Below are positions 28,599-41,500 of a DNA stretch of 64,000 nucleotides, piece after piece. The DNA comes from Cutaneotrichosporon cavernicola. Taxonomy: Eukaryota > Basidiomycota > Tremellomycetes > Trichosporonales > Trichosporonaceae. Each line of letters opens with the position of its first letter. The first letter of the stretch is position 1. The position numbers were made by a program, and so were the translations under genes. Below the pieces are notes generated by a model that saw nothing but the letters and a program-made list of their open reading frames with translations, was not told the DNA's origin and ran no database searches. The stretch spans positions 1,984,001-2,048,000 of the forward strand of contig NC_083393.1 of assembly GCF_030864355.1 (NCBI RefSeq). Reading direction: 5' to 3'.

Positions 28599-28825
28599 AA
28601 GAGCGACGGACAGCTCAGACGTTGATGTTGTACTTAGAGTCACCGATGGATCAGGTGTACAGATATGCGACTGCGTGCGTCTTCTGCTCCTTGTGGAATG
28701 TGTTACATTGTGATCTATGGCGTTGAATGATAATGCGAGATGCAGGCTGATGATATGACATGCAGGATGGAGCGTAACATGCAGGTGAGGAGCGACTGAG
28801 TATGCAATGATGTTGTATCTATCGC

Positions 28826-31800
28826 TTAGGACGGACGCGGTGGGCGCGGGCCGTTCGCGACGTCGTTGTTGATGAGTGCACGCACGTTGACTGGGCGTGC
28901 GCCGCCTCCAGGGCGTTGAACGGGTTTCTGATGTCAGTGGGTGTCAACAAGCAAAGCTGACTCACCTTCTTCTTGATGAACAGAGCGTCCTCGCCAGCGG
29001 GCCGCTTGGGAGGCCTTGGACGAACGGGACCGCCAGCGGATGGGCCAGCGATACCGGGAGGGCGCGGAGCGAGTGATGTGTTCACAGGGTAACCTGGACG
29101 TGCAGGGAGAGATGGATGCGCTGGCAGTTGCCGACCGGGTGCGGGCGGGGGTGAAGATGCGCCTCGTGATGATGGTAGAGCCGGTGAAGACCGGTCGGCG
29201 GGAGACGATAAGCGGGACGCGGTTGCCGAGACATTCTTCGACGGGCTGGTGGAGCCATTCTTCGAGCTGTCATTCGAGGACTTGTATCCGCCGATGTCCA
29301 AGCCGGGGATGCGGGGCTTCTTGCTTGCCAGCTCTACTTCTTGAGAAAACTTGCGCTTCTGGTCAGGTCGATCGAGGTCCTTGACCGTGCCGACCTTCGG
29401 GATGATAGTCGCACCCTCGGGTGTCACCTGGCGCGATTTGTACTTCCCGTTGGGGGGAGCGAGGACACGCTTGGGGTCGGAGAACAGGGTCGAGTCGTAC
29501 TGCAGGTCAGCTTACTCGTAGACAATATGGCAATATTGCAGCGCAGCCGTCTCTACGTACATCAACAAGGAGACCACGCTCGCGTGCGTCATTGACAATC
29601 GTGTTCCACCGCTGGTCACTGCGCTCGAGCGTCGAAGCGTTCCCCAGCACAAACAACGTCGACTTGGCACGCGTCAGAGCGACGTTCATGCGGCGGAAGT
29701 CCTTCAAGAAACCGATGGTCGTGAGGTTCGGTCCGGAACGGACACACGAGAGGATGATGATGTCCTTCTCCTGGCCCTGGAAACCGTCTACAGTGTTGAA
29801 GCTTTGGGTCAGCTGAGGATACTTCGTGAATGCTTCGTGAATGCAACCAGCCGGCAAGGTTGAGCGCTTGGACAACTGACGCCGCATGAGTGCGGCGCTG
29901 TTGCGCCTACTTATGCGTGCAGCTGTGCGCGGGAACTCTTCCTCCTCAGACTAGCTGCCACTCAACCCAAGGCCGTCGCGAACATCGTCGTCATAGGTTA
30001 CTCACTCAATCTTCTCAACGATCTCCTCGCCGAACACGTTCCGGAACTGTCGTTTGAGCTCGTTGAGCTGCTCCTTGTACATGGTGATCACGCCGATGCG
30101 CATCGTAAAGTCGATGCGTTTGCCGTACTGGAACTCGAGGTTGCGGTACAGGTCGACAGCAGCCCTGGCCTCGTCCGTGTTGCGTGTGGATGTACCCGCC
30201 TTCGTCTCGTGGCCATTGACGTTGACAAAATGGTACGGCCCGAAGATTGGGGTCTTGTGCCAAATCGCCGCCGTCTTCTCCGCCATCCTTGGGCCATCCT
30301 TCAGCCGGCTGCTGTAGAACAGCTTGGACGGCAGCTCCGAGATCTCGGGGTGCATACGGTATTGGATGCTGTCGGTTAGCTGTGAAAGATACAGCCAAAC
30401 CTACCTGAGAAGATTCATGTGCGAGCCCTTGTTCTGCGCGATGCGGACGAACAGGCTCTGGTTGAACTTGTTATTGTCGGCTTCGACGCTGAACGTGGTG
30501 GGTGGAAGCTGGTTGGGGTCTGACGTCAGCTAGATATGGCAAAGCAATCTCACCTCCGACCATGATGCACCGCTTAGCACCGTACTTGAGGGGAATGAGA
30601 CAGCTCATCTCGATCGCCTGGGCCGCCTCGTCAATGATGACCGTCTCGAACTGGTAGGCTGAGAGCACCTCCTGGCCGGAACCGGAAAGCGTTGCACAGA
30701 TGATGTCCGCCTCCTTGAGCACGGCATCGCGCGCCGCACGACGAGCACCGTTCAGGTGACGGGTGGCGTCACGTGCGGCGTCCTTGGCACGCGACTGCTG
30801 CTGACCGAGTTTAGTACGTTTCGCGTTGAGGGAATGCAGCTCGGTTTCGATCTCCTTGAGCTTCTGGTCGTTGCCCTGCACGCGGGACATCTCGAGCTGC
30901 TTCTCCTTGATCTGGTTCTTGACAGCGTCGAGTTCAGTCTGCACACGCGTGAGCTCGGAGCCACCACCATCACGCCGTTGCGACTCGTCGTTGACGCGCG
31001 CCTCGACAATGTTGTCGAGTGAGACGTCCTTAACGGCGACGTTGACGGACGACTCGACACCGATACGGACGACCTTGGGGTGGATACGGCCGCCCTGTGC
31101 TGACGGTACCCCGTCCATGAGACGTTTGCACACTTCGTCGATGGCCGCGTTACTCGGTGCAACTACCAGAATCTTGGTCTTGACAGGAGCATCCGCGTGC
31201 GAAGCGATCGGCATGTTGCGCTCGGAGAGGAACTTTCCCACCAGGCCGCTAATCGTCTTCGTCTTACCCGTACCCGGTGGACTGGCTCGTCAGCATCATC
31301 ACAGCTCACGCCACTCACCCCTGGATAAGTGCGAAGCCCTGGACGGCAAATGCACCGAGGATCGCCTTTGCCTGCGGCTCGTTGACCTGGAACTTGCCCA
31401 TGGCGTCCTCAATGTCGCCCTCAGAGACATCAGGTGTGACTGCGCTCCGCGCGCCAAGTATGTCTCGAAGGATACCAGGCTCGTAATACGGCAGACCACG
31501 CAGCGCGCCAAACTCGCGCATGGCAGTGCCAAGTCTGGTGTCAGGATGCTTCGATTCGTTTACCTACGCTGAGCGCTTCTGCAGTAACAGCTTGCCTTTG
31601 ACCCCTACGTTCGGGTCCATCCCGCCCAGGATGCGCAACTTCATGGACACCTCCTTGAAGCGGCGCTGGAATACCATGACCTTGGCAAACACCTGCCGCC
31701 CGCCGGGTGTTTGGGGTTGGATGGTGACAACGTCCGAGTCGTTCAAGCTGAACATGGGTGGCAGGTTACCAGCAACGACAGCCTGTAAGTCGATAAAGTC

Positions 31801-34800
31801 GTCCTCGTAGTCCTTCTGCATAACCTCCACGGTCACACTGCCGGAAGACGGCTGGTCCTTGATGAACTGTGCCCATAACTCCTGAAGGAACATGGGCAGC
31901 ATGACCTTGTCGTAATGCTCCGGACTCGCGAAGGTCGTGGGCACTGATTGGAGTGGCCCGAGCTGAGCTTCTACATTCTCCGGGTACCGAGGCGACGTGC
32001 CAGTATGCGCTGGGTCCCAGCCAAGGACGAACCGATACAGTGGCGTCATGTCTGGGCGGAGACGCATGCGCATCGCATGGGCTCTCTTGCGCTGAGCCTC
32101 ACGCTCACGCATGAGGTCAACCACACCCGCCCCTAGCATCTTGATGGGCCGGGACTCACTGATCTTGAACCTCTGCGGTGCCGCGACCTTGGTGGCCGGC
32201 TTCAGCACGCCCTTCTGGCGTGCTAGCAACGCCGTGAGACCCTTGTTGTCGTCGTCCGAGGACGAGTCCGAGTCGCTCGTATCCGACGACGCTGGAGCTG
32301 GCTTGGCGGCAGGTTTCGGCGGCCCCGTGTACGCACCGATACCAGTGCCGATTGCAGCAGCGTTCGGTAGACGTGTGACAGGAGGAGCGCCGCGGCGTTG
32401 CTCAATGATCTGAGCCTTGTGCTCACGGCTCAAGTCGCGCATGAACTTGGACTTGTAAGCCGACGATGAAGGCGGCCTCTTCTCCGGGTAGAACTTTTGC
32501 GGCACAACATTGATTTGAAGCTTCTCCTTGGGCTTGGGTTTCGGTGCCTCGACGCGCCTGGAGCTCGTGTTTTGAGCACGACGCTCGAGAATGTCCAGGT
32601 CGTTGGCAGATAAGCTCTCGAGAAAGTCGTCTTGTTCCTCAAACTCGTCTAACGTCATCTGGCGCGGCTTGGTCGGCTTGGCGTGTCTGGGACGGCTGGG
32701 GCCCTCCGACGGGGAGTACGTCCCGCCCGCCTTCTTCATCATCACGGCGAAGGCGTTCTTCTGCTGTGTCACCGGTACCGACGGCTTGACGTCGCGTCGC
32801 TCTTGACGCATGTCCTTGCCGGCAACTGCCCGAAGCTTCGAGGACACAGGCTCGACATCAGAGCTCATAGCCTCGGGCGATGTCGCCTTGACCTCCTTGA
32901 TGAACTGGATCTCGTCCATAGGAAGGTCGAACTGGTTGACAAGCTCGGACAGCTCTGACAGCATGTCGTCAGTGATGCGACTCCTGTACGCATTCGAGAT
33001 GCGGCGACAGAACTTGTCCAGCTCGACAAGCGCGCTTTCAAGCTGCGGATTGCTGCTGAGGTCCGGCTTCGACTTGCTAACGCGACCGAGAATGGTCTTA
33101 ATGAGCTCGAATGCCTGGTGGAGCGTTTCCGCGCTGTTGTCAGCTATCAACGAAACGAAGTCGGCTGCACTTACTCAGTCAGACGCAGCCACCCGACGAG
33201 ATCGGCAAGCACGACCTGGAGCTTCTGGGCAAGCGTCTTGCCGACTTGGGACACGCGTGCTGGCGACTCCGCCGGGTCGTCCTGTCGCACCTGTGTGTGG
33301 CTCAAGATGGCAGACTCGAAGATCCGGATATTGTCTGTGATCATGCGGCCGAAGATGAGCGCGTCGCGCATCCAGTCGACCATGACCTCGTTGTCGTAGA
33401 ATGGTGCCCAGTCAGAGGTACGCCTGAAGATGAGGGCGAGCGAGTCCGTCATGAGCTGCCACAGGTCACTCACACGGCGCGTCATGCGCCGGTTATTAGC
33501 GTATTTGGACAGGAACGAGTCCGTCTGGAGTAGGGCCGGTGACAGACCTGCCGCCTCACACAGAGCGTCCATGACGTCCGTGAAGCAGCGCACAAGCCAC
33601 TTGGCAAGCCCTACGGCTTCTGGAACCATCCGTGCGGTCTGAATGAACGCTGAAAGGAAGGTATAGAGGCCGTCCATGGCCTCCACCGAGTACTTGCTGA
33701 GGAGTGTGTGGATACAGTCGCCACGATCATCGACGTCGGTGAAGGACTGCTGGATCAAATTGATCACTGGGTCGTGTATCGACTCAACTGGTGAGAGGAG
33801 GAGCACCATGACAGACTGCGCGACGCCTGACAGCTCCCATAGCGAGCCGAGTATAAGAGGATCGAGCTGCGCTGCCATTGACTCGACAACTCGCGCAAAG
33901 TCAGTGCGGACAGTTTTGAGCGCCAAGTTGACGGCGCGCACACTCGCTTTCCACTCTGGTGGTTGGACGACTTTGGTGAGATCCTCGGGGTTCCATGCGT
34001 CGTTCAGGTTGAGCTCCTCGATGTGCGCCAACGGCGCTACGGCGGCCATGATGAGGGCCAATCCCGCGATGTCTGTTGGGTCTAAGGCATCGTACGCAGC
34101 CTTCCATAGTTCGCGTCGGATCGAGGCACGATGGAGCTTGTCGACGGAGACTGCCTTTGAGACGGGTTGGCCCTGCTTGGCTCGCCGCTCGCGCTTCAGC
34201 CGGCGGCGCTCGTTCATGGCGACCGTGGCGAGGCCAAGGACGCTCTCCATCACCTCGCGGCCATCCGCTTTGAATACGAGAGTGACGAGCGAACGTGCCG
34301 CCTCGCGCGCCGACGACCATCCCTGGTCGGCCTTTATGTGGAACGCGACGCGCGCAATGAAGCTGGAGTGCACGTCGAGCGCGGACGCGAGAGCTGCGAT
34401 ACCCAGATCGTTGCCGGCAACCTTCTCCTGCAGCACCGCTAGAGCCTGTGAGCAGTTAGCATGATTGAGGTATAACGGGCCTACCTTGAAGCCTGCCTCC
34501 GCAACGGCAGCGCGGACCTGGATGTCTAGCCGGTCGTGCTGCATTTCGGCGAAGCAGTAGCCCATAACCTTGGCCAGTGCCTCCGAGAACCCCGAGCCTT
34601 CCTTTGTTCGCTGTGCATCGAGAACGGACAAGAGGAAAGGAGTGATGAAGGCCAACGGCCCGGCTTCCTCAGCACCTTCCCTGCTCTTGCCCTTTGGGTT
34701 CGAGGGCCGGGTGTCAGCGACGAGGGCATCGAAAGACGAGTTTCTCTTGATCTCAGAGAAGAGTGTGTGGGGTAGCTCGGGGGACGTATCGAAAGCCCAA

Positions 34801-35937
34801 GCATGGTGGGTTGGGGACATGATGAGGAGGGAGGTAAAGAGCTCGAGGACGGCGGGGAAGGTATCCGATGGTGTGCCGAGCTGGCGGGCGACGAAGGCCA
34901 TGACGGACTTGTCTGGACGCGCTGCGTCATGCGTGTACCGCCCTTCAAGGAGGCCGCGCTGGATCGCATCGGGTCCCAGGCGGTCAGTGGACACGAGTGC
35001 CTGCACGGAGGAGAAGAGCTCGGTCTGAGAGCCGGAAAAGGTGGTTCCGAGTAGGGCGAGCACCTCTGCACCGACGCCGCTATTTCGGAAGTCCTCAAAG
35101 CACAGCGGCTTGTGCGAGATGAACGCGATCTGGATGCGCGCCCATTGCCGCCGCTCGGGCATGGGTGATGAGAGGAGATTGACGAGTCCGGCGGAGAGGT
35201 AGAGGTCGGCCACGGACGTACGCCCTGTCGACGCGACAAGAGCCACGTCGAATGCTTCTGCGATCTCTGGTATAACGAGGACTGCGGGCTCATTGAACGC
35301 CAGCTGGAGGAGCGCTGGGGGAAGGTCGAACATGCCGCCCAGCTCGAGATGCGGTGATATCAGGCTGGCTTGCCATTTGTCGACAACCTTGGCGAAGTTC
35401 TGTCTTGTGGCAGAGGGGTACGCCGAGAAGTAACTGATATCAGTGGGGCGGGTGGGAGAGGTAGGCCGATTGGGGAGGACGGGCAGTTTGGGAGTGTTGG
35501 ACGTAGGCCCGAGGAAGGAAGGTGAGAGGGGCGAACAGCGCGTGCCCCTCGCTGTACACGCTAAAGAAGATGATAGGGAAAGGGGACGTGATCCAGTACG
35601 CCGTCACCATGATCACTCACAGCCGCTCCCAGGTTCGCCGTGCTGACGCGAACGCGCGCGCACACTTAGCACACGACTTGACGACCTTTGCCAACGTCTC
35701 GATCCACGTCTTGCTTGTCCCCTGCTGCTTGAAAGCAAACAGGACGATGAGGTACGTCGCGGCGCGGCGATGCACCTCGCCTGCCTGGGAGCAGAACCAG
35801 TGCGGCACGACATCGTCACTCTTGTCCCCAAGGAGAAAGGTGTAGACTGGTGCGAGGTCGGTGTCGAGTGGCGTATCGTGCCGTCCCTTTCGGCGGTCGA
35901 GAATGGCCTCGACCTCAGCTGGTGTTGGGGTCGACAT
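28826..35937 (-). CDS. SEN1: SEN1-type superfamily 1 RNA/DNA helicase
   Basis: Eleven exons (35937-35621, 35433-34485, 34445-33175, 33133-31568, 31534-31319, 31281-30554, 30519-30405, 30368-30006, 29801-29561, 29499-28966, 28927-28826), 2133 aa, all junctions in phase. Sen1 ends transcription of noncoding RNAs and removes R-loops in the nucleus. The first ~850 residues form the all-helical SEN1 N-terminal domain; a charged, disordered linker follows; the SF1B helicase core spans about 1370-1930: [12 protein letters not shown] (motif I, rebuilt across an intron), [12 protein letters not shown] (II), [26 protein letters not shown] (V) and [10 protein letters not shown] (VI). The C-tail is basic and Pro-rich. 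The intron at 29802-30005 is enlarged by a foreign 165-nt piece. The first intron (187 nt) is the least certain. Confidence 0.9.
29839..30003 (-). pseudogene. decayed exon copy of the 38541-41500 gene inside a SEN1 intron
   Basis: This stretch aligns without gaps over 165 nt to 38956-39120, coding sequence of the Ser/Pro-rich gene, in the same orientation; about 128 of 165 bases agree by hand count. Translated in the matching frame it gives [15 protein letters not shown], a TAG stop, then [18 protein letters not shown] and [10 protein letters not shown], against TYDKDDRDGLGWSGS, SEEEEFSRTVARIARRKS and LSKRPSLPAG in the intact gene. Taking it out leaves a 39-nt intron, the normal size here. 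Confidence 0.85.
34446..34484 (-). other. in-frame 39-nt SEN1 intron without stop codon
   Basis: GTAGGC donor, GCTAAC branch point and CACAG acceptor; length divisible by three with no stop in frame. Retention would insert 13 residues into the N-terminal domain, so splicing and non-splicing both give an open frame. Confidence 0.65.
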
Positions 35938-38540: not shown

Positions 38541-41500
38541 CTACCACGCAGCCCCCAGGGGCCGCGGCAGACGCCTAGTGGAAGCAGCAGGCACAGCCTG
38601 CTTGGTCATCGTTGGGGTCGTCACGTTGGTCGTAGAACTCATGTGCTCGTCGGACATGGACATGTTGTCCGACGCGAGGTTGTCGGGCGGCCAGTCATCC
38701 TCAAGCAGCACCTCGGGAGCACCCCAGCCATGCACAAAGCGCTTGGGGCGCGGGAGCGCGTCGCGCGACGCGTACTTTTGCTCCACGAGGGCCGATAAAA
38801 GCGCCGCAGTGCCGTGGTTGGGACGTGAAGTGCCAAGTGACGTTGACGGGCGCTCGCCGATCGTCGGCGTCGGCGGGCCGCCAATCTGCGACTCGGAGCC
38901 GGTGGAGGGAGATGTTTGGTTGGAGGCCATGGTACTGTAAAAGTCGGAATGCCGATGAAGATAACCCGCTGGTAAAGATGGGCGCTTGGACAGGTGACGC
39001 GGGACGGGAACGGTGCTCTTGCGTCTTGCTATGCGGGCAACTGTGCGCGAAAACTCTTCCTCCTCGGACTCGCTGCCACTCCATCCAAGGCCGTCGCGAT
39101 CGTCCTTGTCGTAGGTTGCTCCCACACCTGGCGGCTGCGTCATCTTGACAAGGAGCCTGGACGATGACGGAATGACGCGCGAACGCAGCGCCGCGTTTAG
39201 CGGAGGAAGCGAGAGGTCTGGGGTTAGTTTTAGGTTGTTCCTCGGCCTCAGGAACGTACCGAGGTCACTTTCATCTCCAGAGTCTGCCAGAGCGTCGTTG
39301 TCGTCACGCTCTCGACCTGGACGTGCACGAGCAAGCTCAGCGAACGTAGGGCTAGGAGCGCGCGACACTCGAATGCTGGTGCGCACGCTAGATGGCGTGT
39401 CCGAAGAGGCTGGGGTGTCGGGGGTTAAAGGCCGTGGCGATCCTGAACGGGGAGAGTCGCGTCGTCCTGTGGATGCTAGTGGTTTTGGCCGAGTGCGTTG
39501 CATGGTGGGGGAATTCTCCTTGGAGGATGCGCGTCTCTGCATGCGCAGGTCGGCGAGCGAGTTCTGGAGGCGGAGTAGACGTTCACTTGCGCGAGGAACA
39601 ATGTAAGAAGAAGGAGCAGATGAACCAAAGGATGCGGGTTCGCTATGTCTTGGACGAAGGCGCATGGGCGCCTGGAGTCGTGGGCCTGGGTTATGACCCT
39701 GGACCATGTCACGCTGGTAGGCACTACCCCTCCCACCACCGCTTCTGCACTTTGTACTAAACCCTGCACCTGCACCTCCTCCTTCTCCTTCTCCTCCTCC
39801 TCCTTCCAACAATGCAGGCACTCCTTCGCACTCGACAGCAGACTCGACCTGGTTGGCCTCCTTTGCAGGCATTGGAGATCCGGGAAGGCCCTCTTCTCCA
39901 AAGGAATACGTTGGCATGGGGGGGAGGTACCGGTCGATAGGCGACTGGGGCGACAACAACAAGCTTGTCATCGAGGGAGCTGTCAAGGTCGACGCGACTG
40001 ATGCGCGGTGGCTCGACGAGCTGAGCGACGGGCACGTTGACGACCAGGACGGGATCGGCGACCGCGGCTTGCGCGCCACGCGTGCGGATGTCACCTGAAC
40101 GCTCGCACGGTTGTCGCGCTCGGGTTCCCTGTCCTTTGGAGCAGCCGTAGTGTGTGTTGTCGTGGTCGCTTCCGAGGAAGACGACTTGGTGGGCGACGCG
40201 GTCAACTTTGATGTGGTGGCTGCAATGGTGGCTTGCTTGTGTTGGTTGGACGCTGCAGACCATGTGTCGGCACCACCAATGCTAAAGCCGCCGTCACTCA
40301 GGCGCGCGAGTGCAGGAGACACGCGAGGGTACCTGAGGGTCTGAGGCCGGAACGCGTCAAACGCGTCATATGTAGATGCTACAACTCCTGTCGATGCCGA
40401 TGCACGTCGTGAAGGACCCAGCGGTGTTGACGACGAAGAACGCTTCAGAGCTGGGCGGACCGACGTGGCCTTGCGCACTGCGACCTCTGCGTCTGCTGAC
40501 GGGCGCCGGGCTGGTGCCAGCAACGGGGAAGGTGGACCGTGCGACCTTGGTCGACGGCGGTGCTGCTCTTCCAATGCGTCGACCTCGTCTCGGAACGAGA
40601 CGCGTGACCTTCTAGGCCGGACACGGGATGTTGTTGGACCCGATGGGACAGTCGAGGTGTAGGTGGAAGGAGGGGCAGACTTGCGGAGAGCATTGTCGCT
40701 GGTGGAGGGGCAAGGAGGAAGGGGCGGGAGAGGGGGGAAGGCCATGGCGAGGCCCGAGAAGGGCGACGACATGATGGGTGCCGTCTGCGGAAGTCTTGGG
40801 ACCGCAGCGGCTGTGGCTTCCGCGAGCGAGTTGAGGTTTGGAAGAGAAGGCTTTCGTAGGATGGATACGGGGTGGAGGTTTGAGGAAGGCCGCTGGTCGT
40901 AGTAAGATATTGCTCTTATTGTGGTGTGACGAGCGGGTTTCTGTACATTCAAGGATGGTGTGTTGGGAGTGAATGTGTTTTTCGCGGCCAGTGGAACGTT
41001 GAGAAGGACGAGGGGATGAACGAAACACGAAGAGAGTCGAAAAGGAAGGAGTCACAGAAAAGAGAGCGTGTGTGGAGGAAGAGGAAGAGGGAGAGAGATA
41101 GTGATAGTGATAGTGATAGGGATAGTGATAGTAATAGAGTGAGAGTGAGCGACAGTGACAGTGACAGTGGCAATGACAAGAAGAATCGGATACCGGAGAT
41201 GAGGATCGGAAAGGAAAGGTTGAAAGAGGATCCAGGATAATCACCAAGGGGAGAAGGAGAGGTAGAGGTGTGTGGGATGGGGCGTCAACGTGCAAAAGGG
41301 GAAGAAATGTGTAACGCATATACCCAAAGACCAAACGACCGCAAGGATTCACAAATGTGGTCAGTGTCCACACATCCCATGGTCATAATAGACAACCCTC
41401 CTCCAAAACTCACCTCGATCACTCTTAGTCCAAGTGTTGCCGTGGACGTAACAGGCCCACCTCGTGCTTCAGTCGACGTAGCCGCCATCGCACTCGACAT
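38541..41500 (-). CDS. Ser/Pro-rich disordered protein, unknown function
   Basis: The main exon 40940-38541 (799 codons and stop) is certain to be coding. It has no ATG at its head, so I add exon 41500-41414 (29 codons, donor GAG/GTGAGT), which joins in phase 0 at the TGTACAG acceptor across a 473-nt intron: 828 aa. I do not recognise a domain. It is dominated by Ser, Pro, Thr and Arg with many SP/TP sites, has SRVSF, a match to the PP1 docking motif RVxF, a poly-Gly/Glu tract (LLEGGGGEGEGGGAGAG) and an acidic SESEEEEF patch. A cytoskeletal or signalling scaffold is only a guess. Part of the coding sequence has a decayed copy in a SEN1 intron. Confidence 0.7.
41096..41171. repeat. microsatellite (GATAGT)n / (GACAGT)n
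   Basis: Imperfect hexamer repeats inside the proposed 473-nt intron of the Ser/Pro-rich gene; on the sense strand they are pyrimidine-rich, which lengthens the intron. Confidence 0.85.

Follow-up and report, generated by a model that had tools for sequence, protein, structure and literature searches.

A SEN1 intron of Cutaneotrichosporon cavernicola very probably enlarged by copy-paste capture of coding sequence from a neighbouring gene

The sixth intron of the SEN1 gene of Cutaneotrichosporon cavernicola harbours a decayed copy of coding sequence that belongs to a Ser/Pro-rich gene some distance away on the same strand. We consider it very probable that this segment was captured by copy-paste into an intron that SEN1 already possessed. 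The initial annotation had read the intron as having grown by capture of exon DNA, and that reading is borne out from two sides: orthologues preserve the source block as coding sequence, and the 11 best of 120 listed SEN1 frames point to an older intron at the site. The features on which the analysis is based are collected in Table 1.

Table 1. Features of the SEN1 intron and its source gene, in positions of the window
Feature	Positions	Strand	Remarks
SEN1 (senataxin-type helicase) gene	28819..35333	-	8 exons in the minimal-intron model; 3′ end approximate
SEN1 intron 6 of 7 (model)	29802..30005	-	204 nt, phase 2, GTGAGT donor, CTGACCCAAAG branch/acceptor
Putative residual end of the ancestral intron	29802..29822	-	Branch point CTGAC, acceptor AAAG; letters of P0056 and P0128 fit CTNAC then AG
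Tandem 11-mer GCATTCACGAA, two perfect head-to-tail copies	29823..29844	-	Borders the copy on the acceptor side; homology may extend here with gaps
Decayed copy of coding sequence of the Ser/Pro gene, without gaps	29838..30008	-	132/171 identical
Source segment	38956..39126	-	Within the Ser/Pro-rich gene's last coding exon
Ser/Pro-rich gene	38541..40772	-	Matches annotated 679-aa P0002; no Pfam match at E 0.01

Copy and source align without a gap over 171 nt, 132 of which (77%) are identical, at a spacing of 9118 and with both segments on the minus strand. The outermost bases on the donor side of the aligned block are SEN1 exon and intron donor, and the partial match there may be due to chance. 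Within the window, by which we mean the whole 64-kb stretch of DNA that was analysed, at 1984001-2048000 of contig 1, this pair is the sole direct-repeat family of 60 nt or longer. A same-strand match about 9 kb apart, with 128 identities in 165 gap-free positions, had been counted by hand in the initial annotation; the count is exact for 29839-30003 at an offset of 9118. The partner given there, 38956-39120, is off by one, for an offset of 9117 yields 32/165 and the correct partner is 38957-39121. An alignment no better than that of shuffled sequence had been named as an outcome that would speak against capture. The local alignment of the 204-nt intron with the source region has a score of 521, compared with 161 for the best of 500 dinucleotide shuffles.

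The copy has decayed. It differs from the source by 22 transitions and 17 transversions, and it carries one in-frame TAG in its interior, as had been reported; the intron donor adds a TGA in the same frame. The mismatches fall on codon positions 1, 2 and 3 in the numbers 11, 10 and 18, each out of 57. This corresponds to Jukes-Cantor distances of 0.21 for positions 1 and 2 together and 0.41 for position 3, a contrast between codon positions that falls short of significance (Fisher p = 0.081). Such distances are expected if the copy drifts at all positions while the source drifts mostly at third positions, and on this basis each of the two branches, copy and source, would have accumulated about 0.2 substitutions per neutral site.

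Which of the two genes was the donor? Of 7994 candidates scored, seven proved homologous to the C-terminal part of the Ser/Pro protein, and protein-level conservation of the source block extends to C. oleaginosum, T. asahii and Vanrija albida. The six sequences compared, P0001 (from C. cavernicola itself) and P0003-P0007, do not differ at any residue of the segment LGWSGSESEEEEFSRTVARI. The intron copy deviates at four of the 20 residues of this segment (W, E to stop, S and V). Since the block is conserved in the orthologues and the copy has acquired a stop and other changes, the Ser/Pro gene is identified as the donor, and the copy as sequence that no longer codes. A single site, with Q in the copy as in C. 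oleaginosum but H in the C. cavernicola source, suggests that the source itself changed after the copying. The set of proteins with an identical LGWSGSESEEEEFSRTVARI spans the genera Cutaneotrichosporon, Trichosporon and Vanrija.

Its two introns aside, the Ser/Pro gene is identical to C. cavernicola CcaverHIS641_0107580 (P0002, 679 aa), which makes the window very probably DNA of a strain of this yeast. The open reading frame (40952-38541, minus strand) contains a 42-nt intron at 39259-39218, and comparison with P0002 from strain HIS641 points to a second intron of about 150 nt at ORF residues 378-427. Thus longer introns do occur near SEN1. P0001, from strain HIS631, is 36 aa shorter than P0002 from strain HIS641, so that published gene models differ between strains that are reported to be >99.9% alike in the accessible text of PMC10568926; according to the same text the gene models used RNA reads as hints.

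The host gene is identified by Pfam matches to SEN1_N (E=1e-90) and SEN1_barrel (E=1.4e-7). A Pfam search with the SEN1 region 29000-31572, translated as a single frame spanning introns and with stops as X, matched no family. The exon/intron structure is a model that follows the path of minimal introns, giving lengths of 41, 33, 37, 34, 36, 204 and 61 nt. The reading frame is open and SEN1-like on either side of the 204-nt intron, of which the donor GTGAGT occupies 30005-30000 and the acceptor AG 29803-29802 on the minus strand. The copy thus starts on the donor side, as the initial annotation had stated. It had also remarked that removal of 165 nt leaves 39 nt, the usual intron size here; the six other modelled introns of SEN1 range from 33 to 61 nt.

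Was an intron present before the insert arrived? The evidence comes from relatives, as predicted reading frames from unannotated DNA. Such frames run on into introns, and both the presence and the length of an intron can therefore be read from them. With spliced SEN1 (203 aa) as the query, 120 of 433 matches were listed. The 11 best of these 120 frames all indicate an intron at the exact SEN1 site, at 66-90% identity over the aligned part, a measure that may favour matches confined to exon 1. Ten of the 11 stop at ‘...IE’, where GA and then a donor GTGA, GTAA or GTAG would force the frame to close. P0056 (81%) reads IE-WVLSGRLSLTVQ-LQHRRRF, running through a 37-nt intron with a CTNAC-like end and into exon 2 in a shifted frame. 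The frame of P0008 (62%) likewise crosses an intron at this site, 63 nt long and in frame. Among the 120 listed, 105 frames are uninterrupted at the site, and all of these are at most 61% identical; the junction motif with no preceding break is found in 106 of the 120, P0008 included, hence the figure of 105. P0065 and P0076 are without the junction motif, and one of the 120 falls in neither count. The inserted segment is coding in none of the SEN1 frames examined; its presence as coding sequence in the SEN1 introns of distant relatives was the other outcome that had been set against capture.

A search from the side of exon 2 listed 120 of 279 matches, with 69 new proteins. The closest exon-2 frame among the matches listed, that of P0128 (93%), begins MSLACKRSLTSS-FNT, as expected of an intron of 35 nt that starts GTG-AGY and has no insert. 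Twelve of the 69 new proteins among the matches listed combine an MS start with the junction motif. Nine of these fit GTG-donor introns of 32, 32, 32, 35, 35, 44, 44, 50 and 71 nt, lengths that take the first M to be the donor GTG and leave frames with other starts uncounted; the remaining three (P0177, P0194 and P0195) are plain coding sequence. The start of P0128 at the donor depends on the same MS reading, and the frames that read from exon to exon are those of P0056 and P0008 only. Overall, the frames strongly indicate that a short intron existed at the SEN1 site before the insert. With an intron in the closest listed relatives, it is an old short intron that would have been enlarged in the C. 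cavernicola lineage. If the MS reading is right, the species of P0128 may have split off earlier than the insertion, or may have lost the insert. Several of the relatives have frames that fit introns of just 32-35 nt at the SEN1 site.

The edges of the insert permit, without proving, a templated insertion linked to repair. On the donor side the match is solid from AACCTA, and the trinucleotide GAG is common to the intron donor and the source (GTGAGT versus GGGAGC), a microhomology too short to prove the repair route. Towards the acceptor the gap-free alignment weakens past GGTT, after which come the two copies of the 11-mer; no further exact match to GCATTCACGAA is found on either strand of the window. 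Gapped extensions past GGTT of 16, 22, 28, 36 and 43 nt are equalled by 15, 3, 1, 19 and 11 of 500 single-base shuffles respectively, these lengths having been picked post hoc with the sequence already in view. If small gaps are allowed, the homology may reach as far as about 29823. Taken alone, the 36-nt tail has no significant match to the source, with 295 of 2000 shuffles and 180 of 2000 random pieces of the window scoring as well. By eye, neither edge of the copy shows a poly(A) tract or a target-site duplication, though the copy is old and its 3′ edge uncertain.

From these data we propose how the intron may have come to its present form. A short, old SEN1 intron would have acquired a copied stretch of coding sequence, some 165-180 nt long, from the Ser/Pro gene, which lies 9.1 kb off on the same strand and has kept its own sequence. 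The likeliest route would be templated insertion during the repair of a break or a stalled fork within the intron, whether through template switching or because a displaced fragment was captured with hardly any homology or none. As the insert lies between donor and branch point, the intron is expected to be spliced still, in its 204-nt form, leaving the copy free to decay. Neutral decay would then have brought it to the present state, with a stop and changes at conserved residues.

Could both segments instead be copies of a small dispersed element that became exonic in one gene and intronic in the other, the alternative offered in the initial annotation? In its favour there are two copies with edges that are partly alike. 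But when the copy and the source region are each searched at the DNA level against the 20.2-Mb genome of 8 contigs, the former a check that had been proposed at the outset, two places only are found (a count to be read as at least two), and the source block is itself conserved within an old protein, across several genera. Self-comparison of 264 kb (low-complexity filter on, E up to 1e-6) gives four repeat pairs, comprising copy and source (159 nt, 79%), a 68-nt palindrome, and adjoining pairs of 78 and 60 nt. Copy and source are the sole pair of the four that is neither adjacent nor palindromic, and there is no third place in these 264 kb. The many similar genomic copies that define an introner-type or other dispersed element are thus not seen, and we find such an origin scarcely credible. 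Even less so is the gain of a new intron, with the captured coding segment itself turned into the SEN1 intron. The copy does extend to the donor, the intron length of 204 is a multiple of three, a gapped alignment nearly reaches the acceptor, and the 43-nt gapped extension is equalled by 11 of 500 shuffles. Yet the site is not intronless in close relatives: the 11 best of the 120 listed break or read through exactly there, and where the intron can be read it is short and fits CTNAC. We reject intron gain as close to refuted.

Copy-paste capture into an existing intron could itself have had an RNA intermediate, if a piece of the Ser/Pro transcript was copied into DNA and filled a break in the SEN1 intron. 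This sub-route overlaps with capture as a whole, and we judge it rather unlikely. Both genes and the copy share one sense, and the accessible part of PMC5110952 considers RNA-templated patches in connection with class 2 TSIPs. On the other hand the segment lies within one exon, so that no spliced junction could betray an RNA; the edges, as seen by eye, have neither of the marks mentioned above; and a source only 9 kb away fits local copying of DNA at least equally well. As to what the insert might do, no function of the copy is indicated. The intron has no Rfam match at the gathering score and no unusual fold (z-score -1.04, with 32 of 200 shuffles equally stable). That the copy was kept for an effect is very unlikely; in that event the approximately 5-fold longer intron and the purine-rich GAGGAGGAAGAG (once EEEE) might change the efficiency with which the intron is removed from SEN1.

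How does capture of a coding fragment by the SEN1 intron compare with known systems? A decaying exon fragment copy-pasted into the intron of another gene is close to kinds already described, so far as the accessible portions of PMC2718932, PMC5110952 and PMC11724301 go. The copy is homologous to a coding exon and disabled by an in-frame stop, the two marks of a pseudogenic exon. In the mammalian pseudogenic exons of Morais and Harrison 2009 (PMC2718932), as described in the text available, a duplicated piece of coding exon is likewise disabled by stops and decays within a gene. In the present case the fragment derives from another gene, a neighbour of the host gene, and represents an internal portion of an exon, in a yeast with compact introns. 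The copy is also templated from elsewhere with the donor kept, as is class 2 templated insertion. The class 2 TSIPs of Onozawa and Aplan 2016 (PMC5110952, in the part available) similarly result from copy-paste of a distant segment with the donor kept, whereas the present case is fungal, with a source 9 kb away and 23% divergence. Class 2 is further defined by the lack of a poly(A) tract and of a target-site duplication of 5 bp or more, and by microhomology, microdeletion or added bases at the junctions; in a SEN1 copy of this age such junction features are blurred. Templated insertions in yeast dna2, rad27 and RPA mutants (PMC11724301, accessible text) also place nuclear DNA into a break by copy-paste with the donor intact; those arose at induced breaks in laboratory strains, while that in SEN1 is a single, natural and old event. 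Among the papers listed on templated insertions, intron gain and intronic exon fragments, no title concerns an exon fragment within an intron of a basidiomycete yeast, which does not imply absence from print.

The age of the insertion may be gauged from published identities. The nucleotide identity of C. cavernicola is about 93.4% to C. aff. cavernicola HIS471 and about 82.0% to C. spelunceum, as given in the accessible text of PMC10568926. With a neutral distance of about 0.4 between copy and source, the insertion would have occurred well before the split from HIS471, and perhaps near that from C. spelunceum.

Views on the origin of introns are unchanged by our analysis, since the intron was very probably already present. 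If the copy were kept for its effect after all, retention of the intron would introduce a premature stop and could adjust helicase levels. The genome of C. cavernicola has about 2% repeats according to the part of PMC10568926 available, and against this background a single event of this kind is conspicuous; sister species offer a means of dating it. It provides a clean, polarised case of a very short yeast intron growing in one step, in which both the source and the direction can be read.
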